DNA of 36,451 nt. Source: Cyclobacteriaceae bacterium (GTDB lineage Bacteria > Bacteroidota > Bacteroidia > Cytophagales > Cyclobacteriaceae). The DNA lies in assembly GCA_947458475.1 (NCBI GenBank), contig CANGZP010000016.1:1-36451 (forward strand), given 5' to 3'. Positions within the stretch are counted from its first letter, which is position 1, and each line of letters opens with the position of its first letter. Shown here one piece after another: positions 3,030-22,203 of this stretch. The translations under genes were made by a program, and so were the position numbers. The notes under the pieces are model-generated. The model searched no databases and was not told where the DNA came from. It saw only the letters and a program-made list of their open reading frames with translations.

Positions 3030-4181
3030 ATGCCAAAGCTTCTCCTTCTTTCCACCGAGCCCGTTACTTTTAAACTTTTACTCTCTGGTCAGCCTAAATT
3101 AATGAAGGAGGAAGGCTGGGAGCTGCTTCTCGTAAGCGCAGATGGGCGAGAAGTGCAATCCATTTGTCGCGCCGAAGGGGTGCGGCATGAGGTCATTCCC
3201 TTTGTGAAAGGGGTCAACTATGTGGAGGACTTTATTTCTTTTTGGCTTCTTTTCCAATTGATTCGAAAGGAGAAACCGGATGTAATCCATAGTTACGACG
3301 CTAAAATAGGTTTTCTGGGCATGCTTGCAGCCAAGTTGGCGGGCATTACGCATCGAATTCACAGCATCACTGAGATGCCTGTACATACCAAAGACCCCCA
3401 AAAGGGATTTACTTTCAAGGAGAAATGGACTTTTTCGAATGCCACAAGCCTTTGGGTCAACTCCACTGGAATGCTTTCTTTTTTTACCAGCAATTCCGGA
3501 ATTGATGCTTCCAAATTTAAGTTACTTGGCAGTGGTTCAACTTTAGGAGTGGATTTGGAAAAATTCAATCGACAGGTACTCAAAGAAAATCACTTAGTAG
3601 CAGCGACCATGCGCATTCTACCTGGAGAGAATGATTTTATCATTTTGGCTATTGGAGCCTTGACCAAAGGAAAGGGAGTTGAAGACCTTGTCGCTGCTTT
3701 TTTAAAATCTAAGATTGTATCTAGATCCAAATTGGTGCTTATTGGCACTTTTGAACCAGAGGAGGAATCCCTTAGTCAGGAAACTATCCAAACGATTCGG
3801 GAACATCCGCGTGTCGTACAAATCGATTGGACAGACCATGTAGAACACCACCTAGCCTTGGCAGATGTGCTGGTTCAGCCTTCTCATGAGGAAGGGTTTT
3901 CAAATGTTCTTTTGGAGGCCGCAGCCATGCAAGTACCGATTATTTGTTCCAACTGCATTGGGAATACTTCTTTTATTAAGCAGCAAAAGACGGGCTTGGT
4001 ATTTCCAGTGGGAGAGGTAACGGTTTTAAAAGAAGCGATGGAGTTTGCTTTTGTGAAGCGGGATACGTTAGCAAGCTATTCTGATGCACTCTTTGAAGAA
4101 GTCAAAGATAAATTTGACCGAAAAGTAATGCGCAAGTTACAGGCAGCTGCTTACCGTCAATTGCTAAATAATCAAGATTAA
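3030..4181 (+). CDS. GT4-family (GT-B fold) glycosyltransferase
   Basis: Probably transfers a sugar from a nucleotide-sugar donor to a growing polysaccharide or lipid-linked glycan on the cytoplasmic side of the inner membrane. The N-terminal half carries the acceptor-side Rossmann domain (KPDVIHSYDAKIGFLGMLAA at about 90-110, a common GT4 pattern). The C-terminal half has the donor domain: ILAIGALTKGKGVEDLVAAF, then HEEGFSNVLLEAAA, which contains the retaining-GT EX7E motif with glutamates at about 288 and 296. Length 383 is normal. There is no signal peptide or clear membrane segment. It opens a run of three same-strand genes: an epimerase follows after 45 bases and RmlB directly after that, so this looks like a small surface-glycan operon. 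Donor and acceptor cannot be predicted. Confidence 0.88.
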   Translation: MPKLLLLSTEPVTFKLLLSGQPKLMKEEGWELLLVSADGREVQSICRAEGVRHEVIPFVKGVNYVEDFISFWLLFQLIRKEKPDVIHSYDAKIGFLGMLAAKLAGITHRIHSITEMPVHTKDPQKGFTFKEKWTFSNATSLWVNSTGMLSFFTSNSGIDASKFKLLGSGSTLGVDLEKFNRQVLKENHLVAATMRILPGENDFIILAIGALTKGKGVEDLVAAFLKSKIVSRSKLVLIGTFEPEEESLSQETIQTIREHPRVVQIDWTDHVEHHLALADVLVQPSHEEGFSNVLLEAAAMQVPIICSNCIGNTSFIKQQKTGLVFPVGEVTVLKEAMEFAFVKRDTLASYSDALFEEVKDKFDRKVMRKLQAAAYRQLLNNQD

Positions 4182-4226
4182 AAACGCCATGGTACTTTTT
4201 TTTAAGCTAAACCTGTTTTGTCATCC

Positions 4227-5279
4227 ATGAAATACCTAGTCACAGGAGCAGCTGGTTTTATTGGATTCCATGTGGTCCAACACTTACTCCAGAGAGGAGA
4301 GGAGGTAGTCGGCTTGGATAGCATCAATTCCTACTACAGCCTTGAACTTAAGTTTGCCAGATTGGCAGAATCGGGGATTGCTCGAGATAAGATTGCAACT
4401 GGTGTTCTGGTCCCTTCTCTCAAACAAACAAACTATCGCTTTATTCAGCAGGATTTGGTGGAAAAGGAGTCTTTGCTTCGCCTATTTGAAGCAGAGAAAT
4501 TTGACGTAGTTATTCATCTGGCAGCACAGGCAGGTGTTCGGAATTCACTTCTTCATCCCGAAGATTACCTGCATAGCAACTTCACTGGATTTTTACACCT
4601 CTTGGAAGCTTGCCGATTTAATCCAGTGAAGCACTTCGTATTTGCTTCTTCCAGTTCGGTCTATGGTAGCAATGCCAAGATGCCATTCGCTACCTCAGAT
4701 GCAGTGGATCATCCGATTTCACTGTATGCTGCCTCCAAAAAGTCAAATGAACTGATGGCACATAGCTACAGCCACCTTTTTGGAATTCCAACTACAGGAC
4801 TTCGATTCTTTACGGTTTATGGCCCTTGGGGAAGACCGGATATGGCTTATTTTCTTTTTGCCGATGCGATTCGCAAAGGAGAGCCCATCCAAGTATTTAA
4901 TCAGGGTCAAATGAAGCGGGATTTCACTTACATCGATGATATCGTGTCTGGTGTAATTCGCGTGGCAGACCGGCCAGCTACTTCCAACCCCAACTATGAT
5001 CGGGAGCGCCCCGATCCTTCGAGCTCTACGGCTCCCTACAAACTCTACAATATCGGGAACTCGTCTCCCGTGTCTTTGCTAGAATTTATAGAAGCCATCG
5101 AAAAAGGGCTTGGAAAAAAGGCAAAGATGGAGTTTCTTCCCATGCAGCCGGGAGATGTGGTCGAAACACATGCCGACATCAGTGAGTTAGTACAAGATAT
5201 GGGCTACGAGCCCAAAACTTCAGTGGCCCAAGGGGTGGCTGAATTCACCAACTGGTATATGAACTTTTATCAATCTTAA
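4227..5279 (+). CDS. NAD-dependent sugar-nucleotide epimerase, UDP-glucuronate 4-epimerase type
   Basis: An extended short-chain dehydrogenase/reductase. From the ATG at 4227 the NAD-binding glycine motif GAAGFIG is at residues 7-13, and the catalytic pair YAASK is at Tyr167/Lys171, with SSSSVYG upstream. VVGLDSINSYYSLELKFARL near residue 30 is typical of the CapI/LspL-type UDP-glucuronate 4-epimerases, which interconvert UDP-glucuronate and UDP-galacturonate. Substrate choice is inferred from this likeness only. A TTG at 4218 would add three residues, but the ATG places the glycine motif at the normal distance from the start. The gene sits between a glycosyltransferase and RmlB and ends one base before the RmlB start, implying an operon. 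Confidence 0.85.
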   Translation: MKYLVTGAAGFIGFHVVQHLLQRGEEVVGLDSINSYYSLELKFARLAESGIARDKIATGVLVPSLKQTNYRFIQQDLVEKESLLRLFEAEKFDVVIHLAAQAGVRNSLLHPEDYLHSNFTGFLHLLEACRFNPVKHFVFASSSSVYGSNAKMPFATSDAVDHPISLYAASKKSNELMAHSYSHLFGIPTTGLRFFTVYGPWGRPDMAYFLFADAIRKGEPIQVFNQGQMKRDFTYIDDIVSGVIRVADRPATSNPNYDRERPDPSSSTAPYKLYNIGNSSPVSLLEFIEAIEKGLGKKAKMEFLPMQPGDVVETHADISELVQDMGYEPKTSVAQGVAEFTNWYMNFYQS

Positions 5280-5280
5280 T

Positions 5281-6336
5281 ATGTCAAAATCAATTTTAAT
5301 TACCGGAGGAGCCGGATTTATTGGATCTCATGTAGTCAAACTTTTTGTGGCTAACTACCCGCAGTACCGAATCGTCAACCTAGATGCCTTGACCTATGCG
5401 GGCAACTTGGAAAATCTGGTTGAGGTGGAGGGTGCATCCAACTACTTTTTTGAAAAAGCAGATATCCAAGATGAGCCGGTTTTGGAAGCCATTTTTGCGA
5501 AGCATGGAATTACCGATGTCATTCATCTGGCGGCTGAATCTCATGTGGACCGATCTATTTCAGATCCCTTGGCGTTTGTACGAACCAATGTTTTTGGAAC
5601 GGTAAACCTGTTGAATGTTGCCAAGAACGCCTGGGCTGGAGCCTTGGATCAGCATTTGTTCTACCATGTCTCTACGGATGAAGTATATGGTTCTTTGCAT
5701 GATGGAGGATTTTTCCTGGAGACGACAGCCTACGATCCCCAGTCACCCTATTCTGCATCCAAAGCAGCTTCAGATCACTTTGTAAGGGCCTATGCAAATA
5801 CCTACAAAATGAAAACGGTGGTATCCAACTGTTCCAACAACTATGGTCCCAACCATTTTCCGGAGAAGCTGATTCCGCTTTGCATTCACAACATCAAGAA
5901 CAACAAGCCCCTGCCTGTCTATGGAAAAGGAGAGAATGTGCGTGATTGGTTGTTTGTGAAGGATCATGCACGTGCCATTGATGTGGTATTCCATAAGGGA
6001 AAGCCTGGAGAGACCTACAACATTGGTGGTTTTAATGAGTGGAAGAATATAGACATCGTTCGCTTGTTGTGCCAAAAGATGGACGGCAAGCTTGGCCGTG
6101 AGGCAGGCACTTCGGAGAAGTTGATCACTTTTGTGCAGGATCGTGCTGGGCATGATTTGCGCTATGCAATCGATGCTACAAAGATCCAGCAGGAGTTAGG
6201 CTGGGAACCTAGTTTGCAGTTTGAAGAAGGAATAGAACTGACGATTGACTGGTATTTGGAAAATGAGGCCTGGTTGAATCGAGTGACCTCAGGAGCTTAC
6301 CAGACCTATTACCAAGATCTGTACGGAAGCAAATAA
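5281..6336 (+). CDS. rfbB: dTDP-glucose 4,6-dehydratase (RmlB)
   Basis: Converts dTDP-glucose to dTDP-4-keto-6-deoxyglucose, the entry step to dTDP-rhamnose and other deoxysugars. Family features are complete: GGAGFIGSHV at the N-terminus for NAD, the catalytic Thr132-Asp133-Glu134 in STDEVYG, and YSASK with Tyr157 and Lys161. SNCSNNYGPNHFPEKLIPL and the RDWLFVKDHARAI segment are strongly RmlB-specific. Length 351 matches the family. It starts one base after the epimerase stop. The usual partners RmlA, RmlC and RmlD are not in the window, so the deoxysugar must be completed by genes elsewhere. A strong hairpin terminator lies about 150 bases downstream. Confidence 0.96.
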   Translation: MSKSILITGGAGFIGSHVVKLFVANYPQYRIVNLDALTYAGNLENLVEVEGASNYFFEKADIQDEPVLEAIFAKHGITDVIHLAAESHVDRSISDPLAFVRTNVFGTVNLLNVAKNAWAGALDQHLFYHVSTDEVYGSLHDGGFFLETTAYDPQSPYSASKAASDHFVRAYANTYKMKTVVSNCSNNYGPNHFPEKLIPLCIHNIKNNKPLPVYGKGENVRDWLFVKDHARAIDVVFHKGKPGETYNIGGFNEWKNIDIVRLLCQKMDGKLGREAGTSEKLITFVQDRAGHDLRYAIDATKIQQELGWEPSLQFEEGIELTIDWYLENEAWLNRVTSGAYQTYYQDLYGSK

Positions 6337-6486
6337 TTGGATTATCCGCAACCAAAGCTGTACTTGAAAATTAGTAGTAAATGTTGCGGAAATCGTTGAC
6401 AGCTAACCGTCCACAGTCCACAGCCCATTTTCTGAACCAACAAATTTTCTTTAGTTACTGGTGCTAGAAAAGACCTATATATAAAT

Positions 6487-6514
6487 AAAAAAAGCCCTAA
6501 AAAGGGCTTTTTTT
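6487..6514. terminator. Bidirectional terminator between rfbB and the serA fusion
   Basis: AGCCCT (6493-6498) and AGGGCT (6503-6508) pair around an AAAA loop, flanked by A and T runs that lengthen the stem and supply a T tract on both strands. It lies between two convergent genes and can end both transcripts. Confidence 0.9.
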
Positions 6515-6525
6515 ATGTGGTGCAA

Positions 6526-8418
6526 TTAGTATAGAGTTCTGAAGCGAATGGTGCCTGGAATATTCTTCAGGGCTTCAATTGCATCCGGATCGTATACTTT
6601 GTCGATGTCTGTGATCACATAACCGATCTTTTCATTGGTTTTGAGGTATTGGCCTACAATGTTGATCTGGTAGTTGGCCAGTACGAGGTTGATTTTTGCC
6701 AATACACCCGGCTCATTCTGGTGCAAGTGAATCAGTCGATGCGCATCTTTCAAGAAGGGTAGCTGGATATTGGGGAAGTTGACCGAGTTGTAGGTGTTTC
6801 CTGTATTGACATATTCCATGATTTTGCCAGGCACAAATCGGGCAATATTTTCTTGTGCTTCTAGGGTGCTGCCTCCAATATGTGGGGTGAGGATGGTATT
6901 TGGCAATCCTTTGAGTTCCGATTCGAAGCCTTCCTTGTTATTTTTCGGTTCTTCCGGAAATACGTCAACGGCACAGCCTCCGATATGTCCGGAAAGAATA
7001 GCCGCTCTCAATGCAGGAATGTCGACCACATGTCCACGGCTCAGGTTGAGTAGAAGGGCTCCCGGCTTCATTTTTGAGATTTTTTCCTGATCGATGAGGC
7101 AGCTATTGTCTTTTCTACCATCCACGTGTAGGGTGATGACATCGCAGGTTGCCAATAACTCATCCAGGGAGTTCATCTTGGTGGCATTTCCAAGTGCTAG
7201 TTTTTCAATGACATCGTAATAGAAGACATTCATGCCTAGGTTTTCAGCGAGGACAGAGAGCTGAGCGCCAATGTTCCCGTAACCTATAATTCCTAGTTTT
7301 TTACCGCGAATTTCAAAAGAGCCTGTCGCTGATTTGTCCCAAACTCCTTGGTGCATGCCGAGGGATTTGTCTTGGAACCGGCGCATCAAGAAAATGATTT
7401 GCGCGATCGCCATTTCTACAACAGATCGGGTATTCGAAAAAGGTGCATTGAAAACTGCAACCCCTCTTTTTTGGCATTCTTCTAGGTCAATCTGATTGGT
7501 CCCGATACAAAAAGCGCCGATTGCCAAGAGGCGGTTCGCATTTTCAAGCACCTTTTTGGTGACGGTAGTTTTGGAGCGAATGCCAAGGATTGAGATTGTT
7601 CGAATCTTTTCACAGAGCTCTTCCTCACTCATGGCACCCGAAGCCACTTCCACTTGATAGCCTTCCTCTTTTAAGAGTTCAAGCGCAATGGGATGGACAT
7701 TCTCAAGCAGGAGTACCTTAATTCTACTTTTCGGGTAAGAAAATTTCGTATTGAGTTTATTGATGTAGAGGATCTCATCAAAGCTTGGTGCGATGTGATC
7801 TGCCTGGCTGGTTACTTTTGGGCGGCTTACATTTTCGGTAAAGGCATAAAATTTATTGGCCAAGCCAGATGCCTTAATTTCGTAGTCGGTGTACCCATCA
7901 CCAATGACATAGATATCACCTTCCAAGTTGATGTCACGGATGGTTTCCGATTTGCCATTATTTTTGGAAAGGGGATTTTCTCGATTGAAATCAATGATTT
8001 TTCCGCTTTCATCGTAAATCAAATCATTGGCAAAGACATTCTCCTGCTTAATTCCATATTCGGTTACGATGGGGATGATGAAATCTTTGAAGCCATTGGA
8101 GATGATGAACACATCTGCTGCATTGTCCTTCAACCAATCCTTGTTGCGCTCAAAGGATTTGGAAACTTTTTGCTTTAAAATGAAGATCAATTCTGTGATC
8201 TGACTTTTATTGGCTTGAAGGATATCGAGTCGTTGTTCCAGACTTTCTCTAAAAGTAAGGCTGCCATCCATGCCTTTGTCTGTGATATCCTTGATGGCTT
8301 GTAGTTTCTCCTTTTGCTGAGGATCTCCCGAAAGGCTAATTTCTCCCAAGATATCTAATGCCTCTACTCGGGTAAAGGTACTGTCAAAATCAATGATGAA
8401 TTTTTTGGTTTTTGGCAT
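6526..8418 (-). CDS. serA: HAD phosphatase-phosphoglycerate dehydrogenase fusion (SerB-like + SerA with ACT domain)
   Basis: A 630-residue two-enzyme protein. Residues 1-225 are a HAD phosphatase resembling phosphoserine phosphatase: nucleophile/acid pair Asp10/Asp12 in DFDST, ISNG at 106-109, Lys156 in GKSET, and GDGYTD at 173-178. Residues 232-545 are D-3-phosphoglycerate dehydrogenase: NAD motif GYGNIG at 379-384 and catalytic Arg461, Glu490 and His513, with spacing identical to the E. coli residues Arg240, Glu269 and His292. Residues about 560-630 are an ACT domain, the usual serine-binding feedback site. The protein would thus catalyse step 1 and, if the phosphatase acts on phosphoserine, step 3 of serine synthesis. 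The middle enzyme SerC is not in the window. Monocistronic, followed by a shared terminator. The phosphatase substrate is inferred. Confidence 0.93.
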   Translation of the reverse strand: MPKTKKFIIDFDSTFTRVEALDILGEISLSGDPQQKEKLQAIKDITDKGMDGSLTFRESLEQRLDILQANKSQITELIFILKQKVSKSFERNKDWLKDNAADVFIISNGFKDFIIPIVTEYGIKQENVFANDLIYDESGKIIDFNRENPLSKNNGKSETIRDINLEGDIYVIGDGYTDYEIKASGLANKFYAFTENVSRPKVTSQADHIAPSFDEILYINKLNTKFSYPKSRIKVLLLENVHPIALELLKEEGYQVEVASGAMSEEELCEKIRTISILGIRSKTTVTKKVLENANRLLAIGAFCIGTNQIDLEECQKRGVAVFNAPFSNTRSVVEMAIAQIIFLMRRFQDKSLGMHQGVWDKSATGSFEIRGKKLGIIGYGNIGAQLSVLAENLGMNVFYYDVIEKLALGNATKMNSLDELLATCDVITLHVDGRKDNSCLIDQEKISKMKPGALLLNLSRGHVVDIPALRAAILSGHIGGCAVDVFPEEPKNNKEGFESELKGLPNTILTPHIGGSTLEAQENIARFVPGKIMEYVNTGNTYNSVNFPNIQLPFLKDAHRLIHLHQNEPGVLAKINLVLANYQINIVGQYLKTNEKIGYVITDIDKVYDPDAIEALKNIPGTIRFRTLY

Positions 8419-10412: not shown

Positions 10413-10556
10413 TTTCTTTTATTTAGAAGCAGATAACATTACTTTTTTGGCTGCCCTAATCCACTGATTTTCTTCAATCTAGTGCGTACTTTTTTCGAAT
10501 AAGGATTGATTTGTTTACGCTTATTTACTTTTTGTTACTATTACTAACAAAAATGA

Positions 10557-10614: not shown

Positions 10615-11286
10615 ATGGAATCGATTTTAAAAAAAATACGGGTAGAGGTAAACAGTAAGCTGTTTCTGAAAGATCCCTTTAGTTCTGAATTGGGAGTGCT
10701 GATTGTTCAGGAAGGGTCCCAGTTAATTCAAGAATTGGGCATGGAACACTTCACTTTTAAAAAATTGGGAGGGAAGATAGGAAGTACAGAGGCTGCAATT
10801 TACCGCTACTTTGAAAACAAACACAAGTTGCTTTTATATCTCAGTGCCTGGTATTGGGCCTGGCTGGAACATAATTTAGTTTTTGTCACTGCCAACCAAG
10901 CTGATCCTGTAGCGCGCTTGTCAATTGCTATACGCCTCCTTGTAGAGGGTCCCATTTATAAACAAAATGATTTTCTGGATCCGGAAATTTTAAGAAGTAT
11001 TGTCATCAATGAATCCATCAAAGGATTCTTAACCAAGGAGGTAGATCTGGAACATGAGTCTGGAATTTTCTCTCAGGTTTACAAGTTTGGAGACCGAATT
11101 TCTTCCATTATCACGGAGCTGAACCCGGATTATTTGTATCCAAAAACCCTAGTATCCACTATACTTGAGTCTAGTCTATTGCAGACCTTCAATTCCCAGC
11201 ATTTACCGGGGATGCTAGATGCGGGTCCAGATAGCAAGGACCGCTTTCAATTCTTTTATCAACTCGTGACTAAAGCCATTCAGTGA
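10615..11286 (+). CDS. TetR-family transcriptional regulator
   Basis: A 223-residue DNA-binding protein. The helix-turn-helix is at about 35-80: QELGMEHFTFKKLGGKIGST then EAAIYRYFENKHKLLLYLS, the TetR signature including the AxYRYFxxK turn. The remaining residues are a helical ligand domain without diagnostic features. It is the first gene of a four-gene operon and its stop overlaps the ABC start by one base (TGATG), so it probably controls its own exporter, most often as a repressor relieved by an exported compound. The N-terminal extension of about 30 residues before the HTH is slightly longer than usual. Confidence 0.88.
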   Translation: MESILKKIRVEVNSKLFLKDPFSSELGVLIVQEGSQLIQELGMEHFTFKKLGGKIGSTEAAIYRYFENKHKLLLYLSAWYWAWLEHNLVFVTANQADPVARLSIAIRLLVEGPIYKQNDFLDPEILRSIVINESIKGFLTKEVDLEHESGIFSQVYKFGDRISSIITELNPDYLYPKTLVSTILESSLLQTFNSQHLPGMLDAGPDSKDRFQFFYQLVTKAIQ

Positions 11287-12983
11287 TGCAGATCGAACAA
11301 GGATTAACACCGATCAAACGGTTTTTCAATATCCTCAAAGAGGAGAAAAATCAAGTATATGCCATTTACTTCTATGCGGTTTTAAATGGATTGATTACGC
11401 TGTCCCTGCCTTTGGGGATTCAGGCTATTCTCAACTTTATTCTTGGAGGCAGGATTACGACTTCTTGGATTATTTTAGTGATTATTGTGGCTGTTGGGGT
11501 GATTTTTGGAGGATTTCTACAGATCTCTCAACTTCAGATTATGGAGAAGTTCCAGCAACGAATTTTTTCCAAATCTGGACTTTCTATCGCCTATCGTTTG
11601 CCACGAATAAAAACTGAAATCCTTCATGGTAAATATGCGCCTGAGATTGTCAATCGCTTTTTTGATACGGTGAGCTTGCAAAAAGGGATGGCGAAGATTT
11701 TGATTGATTTCTCTGCTGCCCTTCTTCAAGTGATTTTCGGGCTCTTATTGCTTTCCTTTTACCATCCCGCTTTCATTGTTTTCGGCTTAGGTTTATTTGG
11801 GATTTTGGCGCTGATCTTTTATTACACTGCTCCAAAAGGAATGGAAACTGCCATTAAAGAATCGTCTTATAAATACCAAACTGCCTATTGGTTGGAAGAA
11901 GTTGGGAGAACCTTGAATTCATTTAAGCTTGTTGGAACCACCCATCTGCCCATTTTGAGAGCAGACAAGCTGATTCAAAAATACGTTCAGTTTAGATCGC
12001 AGCACTTTAATGTTTTGATTTTCCAATACAAGGTGATGGTTGCATTTAAGGTGCTCATTGTAACAAGCTTATTGCTCGCAGGAAGCTTACTCCTAATCAA
12101 TGACCAAATCTCCATTGGACAATTTGTGGCTGCTGAGGTGATCATTATTTTGGTGGTCAATTCGGTAGAGAAACTCATTCTATCCTTGGAAACGGTGTAT
12201 GATACTTTAGTTTCGATAGATAAGCTAGGGCAAATCATGGATTTAGATTTGGAACATCATGAGCCTCATGAAAAAGTAGTGGATCCTACTTCTGAAGGCA
12301 TCAAGTTTAGCATGGAGGATGTGGTTTTTCAACCTGCAGATGCACACCAGCCACTATTGTCTGGTGTGACTTTTAACATTGCGCAGGGTAAAAAAGTCGT
12401 GGTGACAGGAAAGAGTGGAAGCGGGAAAAGTGCCATGATGGCTTTGTTTTCTGGACTGTATGAAGAGTATCAAGGAAAAGTCCTCGTCAATGACTTGTCT
12501 TTGGAATACATCAACTTGGAAAAATTCCGCGGAATGGTTGGTGATTTTCTTGAGCTGCAGCAAATTTTTCATGGCACGATTCTCGAAAACATCTGTATGG
12601 GTAGAGACCATACCCAAGAGCAATTGGAATCCCTCATTACCCTTGTTGGATTGAAAGACTTTATCTACCAGGCACCTATGGGATTGGAAACAGTTCTTCA
12701 ACCAGAGGGTAAGGGTTTATCAAAAACCATTGCGCATCAGATTTTGCTTGCTAGGGGATTTGTAGGGAAGCCGAAGGCATTGATTATGGAGAATATCCTA
12801 AACTATGTGGATCCTTTGGTAAAAGCCAGGGTAATCGACTATGTAATGAAAGGGCCTTGGACATTACTTATTATTTCAGATGAACCAAAGGTGCAGCAGA
12901 TGGCTGACGAGGTGATCGTTATGGATCAAGGCAAGCTTGCTTTTCAAGGAAAATTTGAAGACTACCTCACTTTCAAAAACTAA
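11286..12983 (+). CDS. ABC exporter half-transporter with degenerate ATPase domain
   Basis: A fused membrane-plus-ATPase protein of type I exporter layout. Residues about 1-310 are the six-helix transmembrane domain; about 340-565 are the nucleotide-binding domain. Walker A is intact (GKSGSGKS, about 375-382) and the D-loop Asp (about 509) is kept. The other motifs are altered: the signature LSGGQ reads LSKTI, the Walker B DE pair reads EN (about 502-503), the H-loop His is Asp (about 532), the Q-loop Gln aligns with Glu, and the A-loop aromatic with Pro. The region LSKTI to YVD aligns to the canonical stretch without a gap, so these are substitutions rather than an error. An upstream GTG at 11283 is possible, but the ATG at 11286 overlaps the regulator stop. 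Operon with HlyD and TolC genes implies export across both membranes; energy source uncertain. Confidence 0.88.
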   Translation: MQIEQGLTPIKRFFNILKEEKNQVYAIYFYAVLNGLITLSLPLGIQAILNFILGGRITTSWIILVIIVAVGVIFGGFLQISQLQIMEKFQQRIFSKSGLSIAYRLPRIKTEILHGKYAPEIVNRFFDTVSLQKGMAKILIDFSAALLQVIFGLLLLSFYHPAFIVFGLGLFGILALIFYYTAPKGMETAIKESSYKYQTAYWLEEVGRTLNSFKLVGTTHLPILRADKLIQKYVQFRSQHFNVLIFQYKVMVAFKVLIVTSLLLAGSLLLINDQISIGQFVAAEVIIILVVNSVEKLILSLETVYDTLVSIDKLGQIMDLDLEHHEPHEKVVDPTSEGIKFSMEDVVFQPADAHQPLLSGVTFNIAQGKKVVVTGKSGSGKSAMMALFSGLYEEYQGKVLVNDLSLEYINLEKFRGMVGDFLELQQIFHGTILENICMGRDHTQEQLESLITLVGLKDFIYQAPMGLETVLQPEGKGLSKTIAHQILLARGFVGKPKALIMENILNYVDPLVKARVIDYVMKGPWTLLIISDEPKVQQMADEVIVMDQGKLAFQGKFEDYLTFKN

Positions 12984-12989
12984 TTGGCT

Positions 12990-14345
12990 ATGTTGAATAT
13001 TTCAAAAAATACCATCAAAGACTCAAGTCCTTTTCTTGGTGCCAAAAGCTTGGAAATCACGCTCCCAAAAAAGGAGAGCAAGAAGCGCTTGAAAATTTTA
13101 ATATGGGTGATCATTGCTTTTTTTCTGATGCTATTCTTGCCATGGACACAAAATATTCGTTCCAAGGGCTTGGTAACGGCGCTACGACCAGACCAGCGTC
13201 CGCAGACCATACATTCTATCATTGCAGGTAGAATTGAAAAATGGTATGTGGCTGAAGGCGACTATGTAGCAGCAGGGGATACTATCTTGCGTATTTCAGA
13301 AGTAAAGGACGAGTATTTTGATCCCTTGTTGCTCCCTCGAACACAGCAGCAGGTGGATGCAAAAACCCAAGCTGCACAGTCCTATGGGGAGAAAGTAGGA
13401 GCTCTTGAAAACCAAATTTCCGCACTCGAGCAAAACAACATCCTCAAGTTGCAGCAAGCCAGAAATTATTTGAAGATAGCAGAACTAAAGGTGCAGTCTG
13501 ACAGCATGGAATTGGTGCAGGCGAAGGTCAATTACGATATCGGAAAGTTTCAATTGGATCGTGCTGAACAAATGCTAAAAGAGGGTTTGATTTCTGTTAC
13601 TTCATTGGAAGGAAGGAGACTCAAATTCCAGGAGGTTCAAGCGAAGTTGATCGGTTCTGAAAACAAATTTTTGAGTAGCAAAAACGAGTTTATCACTGCC
13701 CGTATCGATTTGAGTGCGATAGATAACGAATTTAAAGACAAGGTTGCCAAGGCCAATTCTGACAAATTCACGGCTTTATCCTCTCAATTTGATGCGGAAG
13801 CCACGGTAACCAAATTGGAGAATCAGTACTCTAATTACGAAAGAAGGGCACAATACCGGTATATCCTAGCACCGCAAAACGGATACATCGCCAAAGCCAT
13901 TCAGGTAGGAATCGGTGAAACCATCAAGGAAGGGGCTGAAATAGTAAATATTGTGCCTGCAGATGCTGAATTGGCAGTTGAAATGTATGTACAGCCAGTG
14001 GACTTGCCCTTGGTTCAACCAGGAAATAAGGTTCGATTCATTTTTGATGGTTGGCCCGCAATTGTCTTTTCGGGATGGCCTCAGCTTTCCAACGGAACCT
14101 TTGGCGGGGTAGTCATTGCGATTGACCAATTTGCTGGCCCAACGAATCAATACCGCGTATTGGTTACCGAGGATCCAGAGGAAGAGGGCTGGCCAGATTT
14201 ATTGCGGATGGGCTCCGGCGCTGAAGGTATCGCCTTATTTAATGATGTGCCTGTATGGTACGAAATCTGGCGACAGCTCAATGGCTTCCCTGCTGATTAC
14301 TATTCTCAAGAGGAAAAAGACAAAACTGCTTCTGCTAAGAAATGA
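12990..14345 (+). CDS. HlyD-family periplasmic adaptor (membrane fusion protein)
   Basis: Links the inner-membrane ABC protein to the outer-membrane TolC channel. Using the ATG at 12990 (a TTG at 12984 would add two residues), there is one membrane segment at about 32-50 (ILIWVIIAFFLMLFLPW). The first lipoyl half-motif is IAGRIEKWYVAEGDYVAAGD, then a long coiled-coil hairpin at about 110-270 rich in Glu, Gln, Lys and Ala. The second lipoyl half follows (YILAPQNGYIAKAIQVGIGE), then a beta-barrel region. The C-terminus is a charged tail EEKDKTASAKK. Length 451 is normal for HlyD. It follows the ABC gene by 6 bases and overlaps the TolC start by 4 bases (ATGA), a tightly coupled operon. Confidence 0.92.
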   Translation: MLNISKNTIKDSSPFLGAKSLEITLPKKESKKRLKILIWVIIAFFLMLFLPWTQNIRSKGLVTALRPDQRPQTIHSIIAGRIEKWYVAEGDYVAAGDTILRISEVKDEYFDPLLLPRTQQQVDAKTQAAQSYGEKVGALENQISALEQNNILKLQQARNYLKIAELKVQSDSMELVQAKVNYDIGKFQLDRAEQMLKEGLISVTSLEGRRLKFQEVQAKLIGSENKFLSSKNEFITARIDLSAIDNEFKDKVAKANSDKFTALSSQFDAEATVTKLENQYSNYERRAQYRYILAPQNGYIAKAIQVGIGETIKEGAEIVNIVPADAELAVEMYVQPVDLPLVQPGNKVRFIFDGWPAIVFSGWPQLSNGTFGGVVIAIDQFAGPTNQYRVLVTEDPEEEGWPDLLRMGSGAEGIALFNDVPVWYEIWRQLNGFPADYYSQEEKDKTASAKK

Positions 14346-15736
14346 AAAAAGTAGCACTACTCTTTCTCTGGCTGTTTTCTTCAGTTTCACTTTTGGCACA
14401 AGAAATCCAAAGGTTAAGCTTTGAAGATTACATGCTATGGGTTCAAGATTACCATCCCATTGCCATCCAAGCGGATCTCAACCTACGCTTAGGTCAAATG
14501 GAGGTGCGCAAAGCACGTGGAGGATTTGACCCCATGCTGTATGGCAACCTAGATAAAAAAGAATTTAAGCAGTCCACTTACTTCGAAAAGCGAGAGGCAG
14601 GTGTACTTGTGCCTACTTGGATGGGAGTGGAGCTGATGGGTAATTTTGAGCAAAACTCGGGGGCTTTCCTTAATTCGGAAAGTGCCGTACCCACCAGCGG
14701 CCTGCTATCTGCAGGTGCTGCTGTGAATTTGGGACAAGGATTGCTTTTGGATGATCGGAGAGCTACGCTTCAAAAGGCGCAACTCTATGCCCAAGCTACA
14801 GAAGTGGAGCGCCTCAATTTTAGAAATGAACTGAACCTCCAAGCAACCGCAGCCTATTGGAAGTGGGCGGCAGCTTACGAGAATAAATTGGTGCTTGAAG
14901 AAGGAGTGAAGTTGGCAAAAATTCGATTTGATGGAATTAAACGCAGTTACGAACTAGGTGATCAAGCTGCGATTGATACCGTTGAGGCACTTTCCCAATT
15001 GCTGAATAGAGAATACCGATTGCAGCTTGCTGAGAATACGTTTTTCGAAAATACGCAAGTGTTGAATACCTTTTTATGGAATGAATCAGGAGAACCGATG
15101 CTTCTTGAATCAGGAGTGTTTCCTCAAGCGTTGTCCCAATTTCTAAATGCTGCCCCTGATGCAGAGGATTTGCGGACTTTGGTGGCTAGGCATCCAGAAC
15201 TGTTGCTCACAGATTTTGATTTAGCGAGCTTGAAGGTCGAAAAGCGATTGCAAACGCAGGAATTGCTTCCTGTAGTCAAGCTGAAGTATAACTTTCTAAC
15301 CGAGGAGTTGGCAGATGCCAATCCTTCTCCACTTTTTGAGAACAACTACAAATGGGGACTAACGGTCTATACACCTTTGTTTTTACGAAAGACGAGAGGG
15401 GAACTAGGAAGCACCAAGGCGAAATTAGAAATCAAGCAGACTGGGAGAAATTTGAAGGAGCAGCAGCTCAGAACAAAGTTGGAGACAGAACTCAACTCTT
15501 GGAATCTGTTGAATCAACAAGTGCGTACCCTTGGGGAAAATGTGAAGAGTTTGGAAGCGCTACTATCCGGTGAAACCCGTCGTTTTGAGATTGGAGAAAG
15601 CAGTTTGTTTTTGGTTAATGCGCGCGAGGTAGCAGTTTTTGACGCGAGAGTAACCTTGAATGAGCTTTCTTCTAGACTTCAAATTGCCTATGCCAAGGCT
15701 AGATTTGCGGCTGGGGTTGGCTTTGCCGAAAACTAA
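14342..15736 (+). CDS. TolC-family outer-membrane channel protein
   Basis: Residues 1-19 are a signal peptide ending SLLAQ. The mature protein has the two-repeat helical layout of outer-membrane efflux proteins: long amphipathic helices at about 125-215 and 355-460, separated by beta segments. Patterns such as LRLGQMEVRKARGGFDPML near the N-terminus, GVKLAKIRFDGIKRSYELGD and the second-repeat GETRRFEIGESSLFLVNARE are typical TolC-family signatures. Length 464 is usual. It completes the TetR-ABC-HlyD-TolC set. The stop overlaps the end of the convergent uxaB gene by 4 bases with no terminator visible, so the two transcripts probably run into each other. Confidence 0.92.
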   Translation: MKKVALLFLWLFSSVSLLAQEIQRLSFEDYMLWVQDYHPIAIQADLNLRLGQMEVRKARGGFDPMLYGNLDKKEFKQSTYFEKREAGVLVPTWMGVELMGNFEQNSGAFLNSESAVPTSGLLSAGAAVNLGQGLLLDDRRATLQKAQLYAQATEVERLNFRNELNLQATAAYWKWAAAYENKLVLEEGVKLAKIRFDGIKRSYELGDQAAIDTVEALSQLLNREYRLQLAENTFFENTQVLNTFLWNESGEPMLLESGVFPQALSQFLNAAPDAEDLRTLVARHPELLLTDFDLASLKVEKRLQTQELLPVVKLKYNFLTEELADANPSPLFENNYKWGLTVYTPLFLRKTRGELGSTKAKLEIKQTGRNLKEQQLRTKLETELNSWNLLNQQVRTLGENVKSLEALLSGETRRFEIGESSLFLVNAREVAVFDARVTLNELSSRLQIAYAKARFAAGVGFAEN

Positions 15737-17037
15737 GAGTTCCCGTTTAGCTTGGAATAGGCAAGTTCCAAACTGATTCGATCTTCGACCCCAAACAATT
15801 CCTGACTTGCTTGAATGACTTGGTCTAATTCAGATGCATCACTGGCTTGAAGGTGCTTGAAGTATCGTTTGTTTTCTTCCGAGTCTCGCATCTGATCTGG
15901 GAATCGCAAGTGGCTACTAAGCAATGCCACCAAGCCCACAGCGATTCGAGGAGGTAGTGTTCCCTTTTTTTCTAAAAAATAAGCGCAAATCGGTAACAGT
16001 CGACTTTTGAACTTGGCTATGGACTGCAATGAAATGTCATTCAGTGCATGCGCCATGAATGGATTTTTAAACCGCTCGAAGATGGCAGCCTTATATGCTC
16101 GTAGGGCATCCAAGGGTTGGTCCAAAAACGGAAATAGCTCCTCTTCAGCCAAGCAATTGAGTTCCTGAAGTCGACCAGGATCCTGCACATATTCCTGTAC
16201 GGTTTGGATGTGTTGCAACCTACCTAACGCTGCCATAACGGTATGCAACCCATTTAGAATGCTGATTTTACGCTTGGTGTAGGGGAGGAGTGAGTTGGTG
16301 AGTACTACCCTTTTACACTTTTTGAAAGGCAATTTTTTCAGATCTAGGTCACTTCCTTCAATTCCCCAAAAAAGATAGGGCTCTACCTGAACGGTATATG
16401 GAGCGGCTTTTTCCGCAAGCTGATTTGGAAAACCAGGCACAATTCGATCCACCAAGGTATTGTGAAAGCGACAGTTGAGGTTGAGCCAATTCAGAAATTC
16501 AGCATCCAAATTCCAGGCCAATGCATGCTGCTGAATCAAACTTTTCAAGAAGTCCCCATTGTTTGGGATGAGTTCGCAGGGGAGAAGGATTGTTTCTAAT
16601 TCTGGAGCCTGTTCAAACCGTGTGTAAAGCCATTGAGTAATCCTTCCTGGAAATGAGTTGGCAATTTGATCTTTGGCACCTTCTTGACTCCAAACCAATC
16701 CCGCCTCAGTGACATTGGAAATGAGGTATTTCAGTTCTGGTGAACGAGCAAATGAAAAGAACTTTTCAGAGTCATGGGGTAAGTTAAGCCCATCCTTAAT
16801 GCAGGCAATGGATTGAAATTCTTCGATGGTTTGGCCTTGATCCCTACCCGCTACATACACTTCGTAGGCATAGCCTTGTGCACGCAATCCCTCAAGGGTA
16901 CTGCTATCGGTGCTTTGAACTAGGCAAACCTGTAAGGATTCTCCTTGCCGGTTTAGTTCTTCGATCAGCGGCTGGATAAATCCACGAAGGAAATTTCCTG
17001 TGCCAAATTGAAGAACCTGTATCGATGGGTCATTCAT
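15733..17037 (-). CDS. uxaB: Tagaturonate reductase (altronate oxidoreductase), mannitol dehydrogenase family
   Basis: Reduces D-tagaturonate to D-altronate with NADH, the second step of galacturonate breakdown. The N-terminus has the NAD motif LQFGTGNFLRGF at 9-20. The family's catalytic pattern K-x4-N-x2-H is met by Lys257, Asn262 and His265 (KRKISILNGLHT), the same spacing as in the mannitol dehydrogenase of Pseudomonas. ISNVTEAGL and LPCELIPNNGDFLK are typical UxaB segments. Length 434 is shorter than the E. coli enzyme of about 480 but normal for this lineage. The neighbouring altronate dehydratase, KDG kinase and KDPG aldolase support tagaturonate rather than fructuronate as substrate; a UxuB-type role is the alternative. 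It is divergent from the small DUF1330 gene, only 40 bases away. Confidence 0.9.
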   Translation of the reverse strand: MNDPSIQVLQFGTGNFLRGFIQPLIEELNRQGESLQVCLVQSTDSSTLEGLRAQGYAYEVYVAGRDQGQTIEEFQSIACIKDGLNLPHDSEKFFSFARSPELKYLISNVTEAGLVWSQEGAKDQIANSFPGRITQWLYTRFEQAPELETILLPCELIPNNGDFLKSLIQQHALAWNLDAEFLNWLNLNCRFHNTLVDRIVPGFPNQLAEKAAPYTVQVEPYLFWGIEGSDLDLKKLPFKKCKRVVLTNSLLPYTKRKISILNGLHTVMAALGRLQHIQTVQEYVQDPGRLQELNCLAEEELFPFLDQPLDALRAYKAAIFERFKNPFMAHALNDISLQSIAKFKSRLLPICAYFLEKKGTLPPRIAVGLVALLSSHLRFPDQMRDSEENKRYFKHLQASDASELDQVIQASQELFGVEDRISLELAYSKLNGNS

Positions 17038-17077
17038 ATTTTGTTAGTTTGACTTCGAAAATTAAATCTTAAAGTTT

Positions 17078-17362
17078 ATGGCCGCATACATGCTTGTTGA
17101 GGTAACTATTCATTCACCCTTATTGTATGAAGGATACAAAGAAAAAACCCCTGCTACTATCGAAGCTTTTGAAGGAAGGTTTGTGCTGAGAGGCATGCCA
17201 GTAGTGGCTTTGGAAGGGAGCTGGGATCACGATCGCTTGGTTTTATTGGAGTTTCCTAATCGGGAAAAAGCCTTGGCTTGGTATCATTCTGAAGCCTATC
17301 AAGAAGCAAAGCAAATTCGGGATCAGGCATCTACCGCTCGCTTTTTGTTGATTGGAGAATAA
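17078..17362 (+). CDS. DUF1330-family protein
   Basis: A 94-residue ferredoxin-like small protein. VLLEFPNREKALAWYHSEAY and QIRDQASTARFLLIGE are characteristic of DUF1330 (dimeric alpha/beta-barrel superfamily), a family of unknown activity. It is complete and in the usual size range. It sits between the minus-strand uxaB and uxaA genes on the opposite strand, breaking what might otherwise be a uxaAB operon. There is no obvious metabolic reason for it here, but the placement may be of interest. Confidence 0.85.
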   Translation: MAAYMLVEVTIHSPLLYEGYKEKTPATIEAFEGRFVLRGMPVVALEGSWDHDRLVLLEFPNREKALAWYHSEAYQEAKQIRDQASTARFLLIGE

Positions 17363-17406
17363 GCTAGTGTCCGTTTGCTTGAGGATCGAGCTTAGATGAA
17401 TGGTCA

Positions 17407-19035
17407 TTAAAGTGAAACTCCTCTTTTCCAAGGAATAAAATCAAAGTTTCGTTTTTCCTCTGCCTTGGTTTGAATTTGACCACTCGCTACTGCCACGACT
17501 AGTTCCAATAGCCTTTCTCCAGCAGTAGCTGGGGTTTCTTCCCCAGAAATGATCGTGCCTGCATCGAAGTCGATGATATCGGGCATTTTGAGGGCTAGTT
17601 TTGTATTGGATGCTACCTTGATTACGGGGCAGATGGGATTCCCTGTGGGCGTACCCAGCCCCGTCGTGAAAAGAATGAGGTTGGCTCCGGTTCCCGCAAG
17701 GGCAGTGGTGCTCTCTACATCATTTCCAGGAGTACAAAGAAGATTGAGTCCTGGGTTTGCAATGTATTCTGGGTAGTCCAAAACATCCGAAATAGGTGCG
17801 GTGCCTCCTTTTTTGGCGGCACCACAGGACTTAATCGCATCTGTGAGCAAGCCATCTTTGATGTTGCCAGGACTCGGGTTTTTATCGAATCCGCTTCCAA
17901 CCCGTTTGGCGGAAGCATTGTAGGTTTCCATGAGATGAACAAATTTTGCGGCCAGCTCTGGACGAGTACATCTGTTGATTAGGTCTTGCTCTGCTCCACA
18001 CAATTCTGGAAACTCGGATAGGATGGCTGTACCTCCCAAAGCAACGACTACATCCGACACATGTCCAAGCGTTGGATTGGCGGAAATGCCCGAAAACCCA
18101 TCCGATCCACCGCACTCCAAGCCGACCACCAGTTTACTGAGGGGGGCAGGTTCTCGGAAACACTGGTTTGCTAGCTTCAATCCATCTACTGTTTCTTTTA
18201 CGGCCTTCGAAAGTAAGGCATGGGTCGTTCCCTCTTGCTGCTGCTCACAGATCATTACGGGTTTTTGGCAATTCAGAGCGGCAAGTTTTTCTTGAAGTAA
18301 GCCTACTTGGGCATTTTGACATCCCAGACTCAGTACGGTGGCACCAGCTACATTGGGGTGGTGAATGTATCCTGCAAGCAGACTACAAAGTGCCGAAGCA
18401 TCGTCTCGAGTGCCCCCACAGCCCATGCTATGGGTTAGGAATCGGATGCCATCTACTTGTGGGAAAAGTCTATTGCGTTCGATCTCCAAGGTAGCGCTTG
18501 TATCTGCTAGTGCTGTTCCACTTTTATCACCAGCGATTAGGGCCTTGATTTGCAGTTCGTAGGGATTGGGCTGCGCAAAGCCGAGCGCATTTTCAAAAGC
18601 TTCTTGAAGCAATTTGATGTTGGTGTTTTCACAAAATACGAGAGGTAGTACCAACCAATAATTGGCGGTACCCACCTGTCCATCAGCACGCTTGAATCCT
18701 AAGAAGGTCCGAGAAGGCCAACTTCCAGTGTCAACTTTTGCTCTTGGGGCAATTTTAGCAGTGAGTTGATAGCTATTGGTTTTGTGTCGAATGTTTTCAA
18801 CCGTAAGCGCTGCACCTTGTTTTATCTCTTGGGTGACTTCGGCCACGACCGTGCCATACATGTAAATATCATCTCCTGGTTGAAAGTCTTGAAGGGCAAA
18901 TTTGTGCTTTGCGGGAATCAATTGACATATTTCTAGGGAGTATTGCTCGAGCTGTACTTGCTCCCCAATCGATAAGTCGCAAAGGGCTACGCCAACATTA
19001 TCCAAAGAATCTAATAGGAGTGCCGTGTTATTCAT
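17407..19035 (-). CDS. uxaA: Altronate dehydratase
   Basis: Dehydrates D-altronate to 2-keto-3-deoxygluconate. Residues about 1-95 form the SAF domain (LPAxKHKFAL-like IPAKHKFALQDFQPGDDIYM). The rest is the UxaA catalytic domain with FLGFKRADGQVGTANYWLVL at about 111-130, the THSMGCGGT motif at 201-209, and C-terminal AGTGANLILFTTGLGTPTGN with NPICPVIKVASNT, all strongly family-specific. At 542 residues it is somewhat longer than E. coli UxaA (495) but contains both domains intact. The first codon lies 49 bases from kdgK, transcribed the opposite way, so the two pathway branches share one short control region. Confidence 0.94.
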   Translation of the reverse strand: MNNTALLLDSLDNVGVALCDLSIGEQVQLEQYSLEICQLIPAKHKFALQDFQPGDDIYMYGTVVAEVTQEIKQGAALTVENIRHKTNSYQLTAKIAPRAKVDTGSWPSRTFLGFKRADGQVGTANYWLVLPLVFCENTNIKLLQEAFENALGFAQPNPYELQIKALIAGDKSGTALADTSATLEIERNRLFPQVDGIRFLTHSMGCGGTRDDASALCSLLAGYIHHPNVAGATVLSLGCQNAQVGLLQEKLAALNCQKPVMICEQQQEGTTHALLSKAVKETVDGLKLANQCFREPAPLSKLVVGLECGGSDGFSGISANPTLGHVSDVVVALGGTAILSEFPELCGAEQDLINRCTRPELAAKFVHLMETYNASAKRVGSGFDKNPSPGNIKDGLLTDAIKSCGAAKKGGTAPISDVLDYPEYIANPGLNLLCTPGNDVESTTALAGTGANLILFTTGLGTPTGNPICPVIKVASNTKLALKMPDIIDFDAGTIISGEETPATAGERLLELVVAVASGQIQTKAEEKRNFDFIPWKRGVSL

Positions 19036-20077: not shown

Positions 20078-20742
20078 TGCGGAATCCAAGTCCATTTATT
20101 CAGCGCATGCATGCAGGAGGAATGATGCCCATCTTTTTCCATCCTGACGAGAAGGTATGTTTGGAGTTGGTAAGGGCCGCTTATGAAGGCGGTGTTCGGG
20201 TGATCGAGATGGTAAATCGAGGAAAAGAAGCCAAGGCTATTTTTCCAAAGGTGAAGGAGCTTGTTGGCCAACTTCCGGGGATGTATCTCGGTGTAGGCAC
20301 CATCTACCATCCTGTAGAGGCTGAACTGTTTTTGGATATGGGTGCAGAATTTATTGTGGCACCTGTGATGAATCCTGCCTTAGGCGAGTATTGTGCTGGG
20401 GTTGGTGTTCCTTGGATACCCGGTTGCGGAACAGTTTCGGAGGTGTTTTTTGCGCAGGAGCTTGGAGCGGAGCTGGTGAAGATGTATCCTGCCAACTTGT
20501 TGACTCCTGCATTTATTACGGCGGTACATGCCGTGATGCCTACCATAGAGCTTATACCTACTGGGGGAGTAGAACCCACGCTGCCCAGTATCAAAAGTTG
20601 GTTTGATGCGGGCGCTCTTTGTGTAGGAATGGGTTCCCAATTATTTCGAAAAGAAGACATTGCTGCTGGCAACTATTCCAAAATCGCTGAGACCATAGCC
20701 CAGGTGATGGCTCAAATCGCTTCACTTCGAAATCCAGCCTAA
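20074..20742 (+). CDS. kdgA: KDPG aldolase (2-dehydro-3-deoxy-phosphogluconate aldolase)
   Basis: Cleaves KDPG to pyruvate and glyceraldehyde-3-phosphate. The Schiff-base lysine is Lys136 in ELVKMYPAN, and the phosphate-binding region LIPTGGVEPTLPSIKSWFDA lies C-terminal; GAEFIVAPVMNP is also typical. Length 222 fits the bacterial KDPG/KHG aldolase family. Two ATG codons, 20074 and 20077, overlap the kdgK stop and cannot be told apart. The stop overlaps the start of the TRAP binding protein by one base (TAATG), so the operon continues directly into transport genes. Named eda in E. coli. Confidence 0.93.
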   Translation: MMRNPSPFIQRMHAGGMMPIFFHPDEKVCLELVRAAYEGGVRVIEMVNRGKEAKAIFPKVKELVGQLPGMYLGVGTIYHPVEAELFLDMGAEFIVAPVMNPALGEYCAGVGVPWIPGCGTVSEVFFAQELGAELVKMYPANLLTPAFITAVHAVMPTIELIPTGGVEPTLPSIKSWFDAGALCVGMGSQLFRKEDIAAGNYSKIAETIAQVMAQIASLRNPA

Positions 20743-21731: not shown

Positions 21732-22201
21732 AATTGAAATTAACACTAGATCGATCCCTTCAAGTTATCCTTGCGATTTTGATGGGAATGATGGTCCTGA
21801 ATGTGACCTGGCAGGTTTTTTCTCGTTATGTATTGGGTGACCCGAGTTCATTTACCGATGAATTGGCTCGGTACAGCATGATTTGGTTAGGACTTTTGGG
21901 AGCTGCCTATGTATCTGGTAAGCAGGGTCATTTGGCTATTGATGTATTGGTAGAAAAGATGAAGGGTAAAAACCTTTTTTATTTGCAGCTATTCATCCAT
22001 GGCATGGTTATTTTTTTCGGAGCTGTAATTATGGTAGGCGGCGGTACTAATCTGGTATACATTTCTCAGTTGCTGCAGCAAAAATCAGCCACCCTTCAAG
22101 TGCCCTTGTCTTTGGTGTATGCCATGGTGCCTATTTCTGGAGTTTTAGTGGTGTATTACCATAGTTTTCATGTGGTTCAACTGATTAAAAGCCAAGATTA
22201 A
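21728..22201 (+). CDS. TRAP transporter small permease (DctQ family)
   Basis: A 157-residue four-helix membrane subunit that pairs with DctM. VILAILMGMMVLNVTWQVFS, RYVLGDPSSFTDELARYSMI and GAAYVSGKQGHLAIDVLVEK are typical DctQ segments (the WQVFxRY and FTDELARY motifs). The start overlaps the binding-protein stop by 4 bases (ATGA) and the stop lies 2 bases before the DctM start, so the three genes are one translationally coupled unit. Confidence 0.93.
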   Translation: MKLKLTLDRSLQVILAILMGMMVLNVTWQVFSRYVLGDPSSFTDELARYSMIWLGLLGAAYVSGKQGHLAIDVLVEKMKGKNLFYLQLFIHGMVIFFGAVIMVGGGTNLVYISQLLQQKSATLQVPLSLVYAMVPISGVLVVYYHSFHVVQLIKSQD

Positions 22202-22203
22202 CC

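Follow-up and report, generated by a model that had tools for sequence, protein, structure and literature searches.

A widespread family of HlyD/TolC-linked ABC exporters with a degraded or deleted ATPase, probably running on another energy source

The window considered here is a whole stretch of 36,451 nucleotides, namely contig CANGZP010000016.1 (contig C16 of its source genome) from a Cyclobacteriaceae bacterium (GCA_947458475.1), the genome assembly of which spans 2.77 Mb and is 79% complete. It harbors a tight operon of four genes in which an ATP-binding cassette (ABC) exporter-like protein, with a transmembrane domain (TMD) and a nucleotide-binding domain (NBD), is encoded together with a TetR-family regulator, a HlyD-family adaptor and a TolC-family outer-membrane factor. 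The exporter-like protein belongs to a widespread family in which the ATPase is degraded, and in many species deleted, and whose pumps probably run on another energy source. The genes of the operon and the motifs of its central protein are listed below.

10615 to 11286, forward strand: TetR-family regulator of 223 amino acids (aa) (Pfam TetR_N, 1.9e-6)
11286 to 12983, forward strand: half-size ABC exporter-like protein of 565 aa from the ATG start (Pfam ABC_membrane, 1e-9; ABC_tran, 9.4e-16), with the TMD at about residues 10-330 and the degenerate NBD at about residues 340-566, counted from the GTG at 11283
12408 to 12431, forward strand: intact Walker A motif GKSGSGKS (residues 376-383)
12717 to 12731, forward strand: LSKTI where the LSGGQ signature is expected (residues 479-483)
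12783 to 12794, forward strand: IMEN at the Walker B site, where ..DE is expected (residues 501-504)
12879 to 12881, forward strand: Asp533 in place of the His at the H-loop site
12990 to 14345, forward strand: HlyD-family periplasmic adaptor of 451 aa from the ATG at 12990 (453 aa from the TTG at 12984) (Pfam HlyD_3, 1.3e-11)
14342 to 15736, forward strand: TolC-family outer-membrane factor of 464 aa (Pfam OEP, 6.7e-36), its start overlapping the HlyD stop

The ABC-like open reading frame (ORF) is open from either the GTG at 11283 (566 aa) or the ATG at 11286 (565 aa) to the stop ending at 12983. The ATG fits the start given in a preliminary description of this DNA, and it overlaps the TetR stop in the string TGATG. 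The TetR, HlyD and TolC neighbours all have open frames, and these, with the Pfam matches, bear out the coupling of an intact exporter frame to the three genes that had been described from the sequence. The adaptor can also be matched to the NCBIfam models type_I_hlyD (6.8e-21) and EmrA/EmrK family (1.3e-15), in both cases under the NCBI cut-offs.

Alignment with canonical exporters of the same genome agrees with the earlier account of the motifs: Walker A and the D-loop Asp are retained, the signature, Walker B and H-loop positions read LSKTI, EN and Asp, and the Q-loop Gln and the A-loop Tyr are replaced by Glu424 and Pro, respectively. At Walker B both acids are altered (DE to E503 N504), not the Glu alone. 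Misalignment of the motifs was considered and ruled out, the stretch from Walker A to the H-loop being nearly gap-free against the canonical paralogues. When the source genome was searched for other ABC proteins, 12 were found; simple pattern matching shows Walker B DE in 11 of them and DD in one (a protein that also holds another DE string), an H-loop-like His in 11 of the 12 and a signature resembling LSGGQ in 10. Among the characteristics of a type IV ABC exporter, a TMD fold fused to an NBD and Walker A can be found in the window protein, and the canonical signature, Walker B, H-loop and Q-loop cannot; among those of type I secretion, the HlyD/TolC operon is present and, judged by sequence alone, an ATP-hydrolysing ABC transporter is not. 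Though the motifs are gone, the NBD fold is kept, since the AlphaFold2 model (30 sequences; pLDDT 77.0, pTM 0.69), of which the NBD is the most confident part, matches ABC exporters or their NBDs in all 50 best rows of a structure comparison (Z 27.6-29.6). The best match is TM287/288 (6quz_C; Z 29.6, root-mean-square deviation 2.9, 424 residues aligned), and HlyB (8dck_A) is matched with Z 28.3, a deviation of 3.8, 439 residues aligned and 21% identity. Chains of the transporter SbmA are absent among these 50 best rows, which is evidence in neither direction.

Relatives can be found in 97 of 395 genomes of the window's phylum (E <= 1e-60). In an alignment of 165 loci and the window (166 rows, including three canonical paralogues of the source genome for comparison), the NBD lacks the catalytic set in 112 rows, the window among them, and is wholly absent in 31, where the frame ends just past the sixth transmembrane helix (TM6). 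An isolated mutant is ruled out by these two groups of rows. Walker B DE is kept in 20 rows, with the H-loop His in 15 of these, and LSGGQ is found in none of the 20, so that they are not fully canonical themselves. Within the 112 degenerate rows, Walker B reads ED in 51 and EN in 27, and the H-loop His is replaced in 111. Not one of 162 aligned relatives has the full canonical set, which excludes the case, raised in the preliminary description, of canonical homologues with this copy as the exception. The lineage-wide subfamily with intact partners that was suspected there is found in the degenerate and NBD-less rows, in which HlyD and TolC are retained. The conserved non-canonical residues expected of it are not, as EN, LSKTI and Asp are not themselves conserved; what is common is the absence of the catalytic set.

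NBD-less homologues are 40-43% identical to the TMD of the window protein. Counted by frame length, NBD-less-length frames occur in 24 of 151 genomes of one family and in 50 of 150 genomes (52 places) of a second; with one place from the phylum scan alone this makes 77 places (1 + 24 + 52), 31 of which were examined with their neighbours. One of the 24 places in the first family has a stop inside the match, and short frames resembling cut or partial full-length copies (G484, G583 and G588 in the scan of the first family, G716 in that of the second) were left uncounted. The 166-row counts leave out 22 duplicate or longer-flank-refetched loci, hits weaker than 1e-30 (e.g., L075), L071 (split ORF), L245 (contig-end fragment), L246 (271-aa partial copy), L157-L186 (canonical orthologues) and L187-L226 (NBD-less loci with short flanks from 40 genomes, 18 of which are covered by refetched loci). 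L071, a close homologue from a metagenome-assembled genome (MAG), has a TMD ORF at 5980-6771 and a TM6-NBD ORF at 6762-7679, divided at about residue 264 by either an assembly error or a real split. Some members of 690-832 aa carry N-terminal extensions of about 110-260 residues (L085-L088, L097, L098, L101-L110, L113, L148, L154, L227-L229, L231, L232, L237 and L238); no Pfam match was found in the extension of the four that were scanned (L148, L104, L097 and L109).

Loci with less than 3.3 kb downstream (11 of 111 degenerate relatives and one of five DE-without-His relatives) being excluded, HlyD and TolC genes lie downstream on the same strand in 100/100 degenerate and 31/31 NBD-less loci, frequently with start-stop overlaps. 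The pump genes are therefore maintained without the ATPase. In relatives with DE and His, HlyD is found in 15/15 and TolC in 14/15; both are found in only two of four DE-without-His loci. Two members of the latter type, L099 and L111, have no adjoining HlyD gene, and L099 is flanked by large unidentified ORFs. With the window TetR as query, by which distant TetRs may be missed, a same-strand TetR gene precedes the exporter-like gene in 72 of 99 degenerate loci, a divergent one is present in 10 of 31 NBD-less loci, and none is found upstream in 14 DE-and-His relatives. No NBD gene lies inside any of the 31 NBD-less operons, and an NBD ORF of any kind (1e-3) occurs in three of the 31 stretches: in L264 and L265 it is of ABC-F type, with two ABC_tran domains each and more than 1 kb upstream, and in L077 an ABC ATPase gene (282 aa) is located 1.3 kb downstream of TolC, with another gene in between. 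Within the stretches retrieved, a second NBD ORF is present in two of 100 degenerate loci (L143 and L147), adjacent in neither. In L143, the opposite strand carries a full ABC exporter gene (586 aa; 10643-12403), separated by about 1.9 kb from the degenerate gene.

Trees were made after thinning of near-copies, with 126 rows for the TMD and 100 rows when sphingomonad relatives were included. In the TMD-only tree, a single non-catalytic clade (103 rows; Shimodaira-Hasegawa-like approximate likelihood ratio test, SH-aLRT, 100) takes in every degenerate or NBD-less Bacteroidota row but L113; inside it, the NBD-less rows are in turn united in a clade of their own (31 rows, SH-aLRT 100) among degenerate full-length rows. 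The 20 rows outside the non-catalytic clade are 19 with Walker B DE and L113 (DS); L239, which lies within the clade, combines an aligned DE with a P-loop that is broken; it is included in the 63 intermediate and the 72 degenerate rows mentioned below. The Q-loop change is not a mark of lost catalysis because the Gln is also missing in the 20 relatives outside the clade; among the 112 degenerate rows, 13 have it. Walker A K[ST] is found in 20/20 rows outside the clade, in 60/63 intermediate rows inside it and in 0/9 of the full-length kin nearest to the NBD-less rows, which read GKN, GKH, GKE or GKD (GKN likewise in Persicobacter). This distribution fits an order of loss in which the catalytic residues went before the Mg-ligand (the Walker A Ser/Thr), and the latter before the whole NBD in one clade. 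The earlier statement that decay is unlikely stands for the operon, the genes of which are kept, and fails for the NBD, which is eroded across the family and deleted in that clade.

The non-synonymous rate (dN) of the NBD is 2.4-3.1 times that of the TMD in 28 Algoriphagus-type sequences, compared to 1.05-1.63 in 30 orthologues of a canonical exporter paralogue from the same genus; in ABC transporters at large, the NBDs are described as the conserved part (PMC7756269). In the nine closest pairs, the ratio of dN to the synonymous rate (dS) is 0.051 for the NBD and 0.018 for the TMD, a measure that is rough at larger distances because dS is near saturation for most pairs. The window-type NBD is relaxed but under purifying selection. 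NBD-less genes are under purifying selection as well, with dN/dS values of 0.04-0.10 in the eight closest pairs and a median of 0.16 (36 of 465 pairs usable). For the second cytoplasmic loop (ICL2), by which exporters dock on their NBD, conservation amounts to 0.64 of the TMD mean in the NBD-less group versus 0.83-0.92 in three others.

Members can also be found on plasmids, where a search returned Persicobacter, Aureibacter and Riemerella among the Bacteroidota and relatives in 15 Sphingomonadales records. In the Aureibacter member the P-loop is lost as well. Nine sphingomonad loci were examined, of which seven are intact; an NBD-like region persists in these seven, none of which has the P-loop, the Walker B acids or the His. 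Of three sphingomonad proteins scanned with Pfam, ABC_tran was missed in two and reached E 0.013 in the third, and the five loci with annotated neighbours show an adaptor and then a TolC gene. Catalysis may have been lost once for Bacteroidota and sphingomonads together or twice (tree support 68). Two sphingomonad plasmid copies (L275 and L276, at about 4001-5700) are disrupted at an IS3-family transposase gene. In a plasmid of Riemerella anatipestifer (L267, 1754-4198), the member adjoins a fused MurF/alanine racemase gene, which an automatic tool names vanT at 34% identity and which is probably a cell-wall gene, not a resistance gene. A sphingomonad pump composed of HlyB, HlyD and an outer-membrane protein is described as an ABC-type pump (PMC9505733).

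The columns of the TMD alignment were counted for two stretches in particular.

11700 to 11759, forward strand: stretch of the third transmembrane helix (TM3) with Gln149
12117 to 12182, forward strand: TM6 stretch GQFVAAE...VEK with the membrane residue Glu285

Of the glutamates that might form a ladder like that in the TMD of SLiPT transporters (SbmA/BacA), Glu88, Glu285 and Glu296 are strongly conserved in Bacteroidota, and Glu285 and Glu296 are mostly common to relatives outside the non-catalytic clade. Glu285 is present in 71/72 degenerate, 7/7 sphingomonad and 31/31 NBD-less rows and in 19/20 rows outside the clade, and is absent in the three canonical paralogues. Gln149 is found in 71/72 degenerate, 7/7 sphingomonad and 23/31 NBD-less rows and in 0/20 outside. 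Twelve TMD columns separate the degenerate rows from the 20 outside relatives, and only Gln149 is common to the sphingomonads. As a new membrane residue that would explain ion coupling, Gln149 was given little weight because the screen was post hoc and the groups compared are clades.

On balance, the reading we favor is that the window protein is the inner-membrane part of a TetR-controlled tripartite export pump independent of ATP hydrolysis, with a TMD probably driven by ions as in SbmA. Since relatives do without an NBD in the same operon, ATP hydrolysis should not be needed, and the option of a gated or ion-coupled conduit, one of several offered in the preliminary description, gains strongly from these NBD-less relatives. 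The ancestor would have been a type-I-secretion-like ABC exporter, the NBD of which lost its catalytic residues as the TMD, HlyD and TolC were kept; the NBD would subsequently have been deleted in one clade. A TMD homodimer might then act as an alternating-access secondary transporter powered by a gradient of protons or another ion, as in SbmA, and hand its substrate to HlyD/TolC. The TetR control suggests that this substrate may be a small molecule. In the window protein, the NBD would probably still bind ATP and either brace the structure or act in regulation as an ATP sensor.

Several points weigh against this reading. The sequences show the loss of motifs and domain, the retention of the operon and a relaxed but purifying selection on the NBD; the absence of ATP hydrolysis, the ion coupling, a small-molecule substrate and the homodimer are deduced. 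Glu285, which 19 of the 20 outside relatives also have, is therefore no newly gained proton path, and may be an older site for an ion or a substrate. The ED found at Walker B in 51 of the 112 degenerate rows is a charge-conserving swap with which slow hydrolysis could persist. As the window Walker A is intact and its NBD under purifying selection, the NBD must do something, possibly with ATP. The drop of ICL2 is not unique, since TM4 is equally low in the NBD-less group (0.63), although for TM4 a low value (0.65) is also found in the nearest full-length group. Rows outside the clade also have an NBD identity below the TMD identity at close range (0.71-0.80), so some relaxation is older than the loss of the motifs. 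Finally, a tree in which the degenerate full-length rows are held together apart from the NBD-less rows is not quite rejected by the approximately unbiased test (p 0.067), and the nesting of the NBD-less clade is therefore likely, not proven.

Because Walker A is intact, an ATP-binding switch is possible for the window member, as is the binding of ATP without turnover that had been proposed for it. Extended to the family, this would mean that Walker-A-bearing NBDs bind ATP and that the binding and release of ATP, or its very slow hydrolysis with the help of substitute residues, drives or gates the TMD, ATP having been dispensed with in the NBD-less and P-loop-less branches alone. K[ST] in nearly all intermediate rows, the low NBD dN/dS in the closest pairs and the confidently modelled NBD fold are in line with it, and ATP bound at degenerate sites of other transporters is believed to work as a brace (PMC7756269). 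We regard it as unlikely all the same, considering that the signature, both Walker B acids and the H-loop are all altered in the window protein, that release of ATP without hydrolysis yields no net energy, and that relatives lacking the NBD retain the same operon. A passive or structural role, in which the TMD would not pump but form a channel or serve the HlyD-TolC conduit as anchor, plug or sensor, would agree with the strong TMD conservation, the strict linkage to HlyD/TolC and the lack of a direct sign of ion coupling. The model of the window protein, however, has a type IV exporter fold, conserved membrane charges can be found in every branch, and TetR control with a dedicated HlyD and TolC suggests inducible export, so that such a role seems distinctly unlikely to us.

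Pairing with a canonical ABC half-transporter encoded elsewhere, which would supply the ATPase, is harder still to credit. The source genome has other ABC exporters, L143 has its full-length exporter gene on the other strand, and exporters with one degenerate site are common: in TM287/288, TAP and MRP1 one site has lost its Walker B Glu and, in many cases, its H-loop His (PMC7756269). These keep one working site, whereas in a homodimer of the window protein, or in any heterodimer, both sites would be non-canonical; both composite sites would be damaged because the changes in the window subunit affect Walker B/H-loop as well as the signature. No second ABC gene, and hence none of the competent partner envisaged in the preliminary description, was found in the window; partner genes alongside are rare in relatives and non-adjacent (2/100 degenerate loci), and a heterodimeric ATPase is impossible for NBD-less relatives. 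Many importers use separate NBD subunits, and the NBD-less members might borrow a stand-alone ABC ATPase in trans, the family still being ATP-driven; L077, with its ATPase gene past TolC, could be so read. We consider this very improbable given that NBD ORFs occur in 3/31 stretches only, two of them ABC-F-type and upstream and the third beyond TolC, and that ICL2 conservation drops in the NBD-less group. Simple pseudogene decay of a dispensable pump can be practically dismissed. It could draw on the faster evolution of the NBD, the broken copies L071, L275 and L276, and stops in the matches of 10 of 97 genomes in the phylum scan, most of which lie where the match overruns the frame end. It is largely refuted by the open frames of the rows used, by dN/dS values far below 1 for TMD and NBD, and by the retention of HlyD and TolC in every degenerate or NBD-less locus checked.

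With regard to the context of the operon, one further feature can be found upstream of the regulator gene.

10534 to 10548, strand not applicable: candidate TetR operator GTTACTATTACTAAC, within a longer palindrome at 10529-10553

This palindrome, about 80 bases 5' of the TetR start, is the sole GTTA-N3..9-TAAC match in the window and likely a TetR operator. Of 36 related loci, 20 show a GTTA/TAAC-type match some 750-800 bases ahead of the ABC start, with a longer spacer in L063 and L064, and 16 have none there. In one scan of named genomes, the closest loci are in MAGs labelled Spirosoma fluviale (95% identity), Cyclobacteriaceae (90%) and Algoriphagus (81-88%), and the next closest are Algoriphagus isolates. 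Elsewhere in the window, one ORF (6526-8418, reverse strand) joins a HAD phosphatase (SerB-like), a 2-hydroxyacid dehydrogenase (SerA-like) and an ACT domain and is possibly a fused serine-biosynthesis enzyme. Enzymes of the mannitol-dehydrogenase family and of altronate/galactarate-dehydratase type (15733-19035, reverse strand; 20742-23502, forward strand) lie near a TRAP transporter (DctP, DctM), which suggests uptake and use of uronates. At 26394-29807 (forward strand), a 1137-aa protein with DUF7133, HEAT repeats and a cytochrome c domain is encoded, followed by a PIG-L deacetylase.

In its gene set, adaptor, TolC partner and exporter fold, the window system is similar to type I secretion (HlyB-HlyD-TolC); it differs in that HlyB is energised by ATP hydrolysis, whereas the catalytic residues of the window family are gone, and in the TetR gene that heads most degenerate operons. 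TetR-headed operons are common for drug efflux. EmrAB-TolC likewise associates a secondary transporter with a HlyD-type adaptor and TolC, and its adaptor model is the EmrA/EmrK one matched below cut-off, but its inner-membrane part is an MFS protein and not an ABC-derived TMD. No match to the SbmA-family Pfam model (SbmA_BacA) of the SLiPT family was found in the window (E <= 0.001) or in four NBD-less relatives scanned (E <= 0.01). SbmA/BacA (SLiPT) would be alike in its type IV exporter TMD without ATP use, in the loss of the NBD from an ABC ancestor and in membrane glutamates some of which are also found in NBD-bearing relatives: SbmA is described as proton-driven with an exporter TMD, its proposed origin is a YddA-like ABC exporter that lost the NBD, and some of its glutamates are already present in YddA (PMC13316013). 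In contrast, SbmA/BacA is an importer with extra TM0 helices, and here an export operon with HlyD and TolC is found. Unlike SbmA/BacA, the window family has living intermediates with degenerate NBDs, and the window protein, unlike SLiPT members, retains an NBD, which 31 relatives lack.

Tripartite pumps are reviewed as ABC-, RND- or MFS-driven (PMC8277102), and no description of ATPase-less ABC exporters with HlyD/TolC was found in searches of a library of open-access PMC papers, as judged by titles, the first lines of abstracts and text passages; passages of PMC4026382 hold nothing on the window family. In annotated records, the loss of the ATPase goes unremarked because members are labelled 'ABC transporter ATP-binding protein' or 'ABC transporter transmembrane domain-containing protein'. 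Tentatively, and short of calling it probable, a tripartite exporter class common to two phyla (Bacteroidota, and Sphingomonadales among the Pseudomonadota) can be envisaged, in which an ABC exporter may have turned into an ion-driven secondary transporter and living species would preserve the steps, from the loss of catalytic residues to that of the Walker A Mg-binding Ser/Thr and the erasure of the P-loop or deletion of the NBD, with HlyD/TolC kept throughout. If this is true, the family would show in living species the passage from an ATP-driven pump to a secondary transporter, which for SbmA has been proposed from the end state. The NBD-less homologues would then be natural deletion controls, by which a role of the NBD beyond ATP hydrolysis becomes directly testable.

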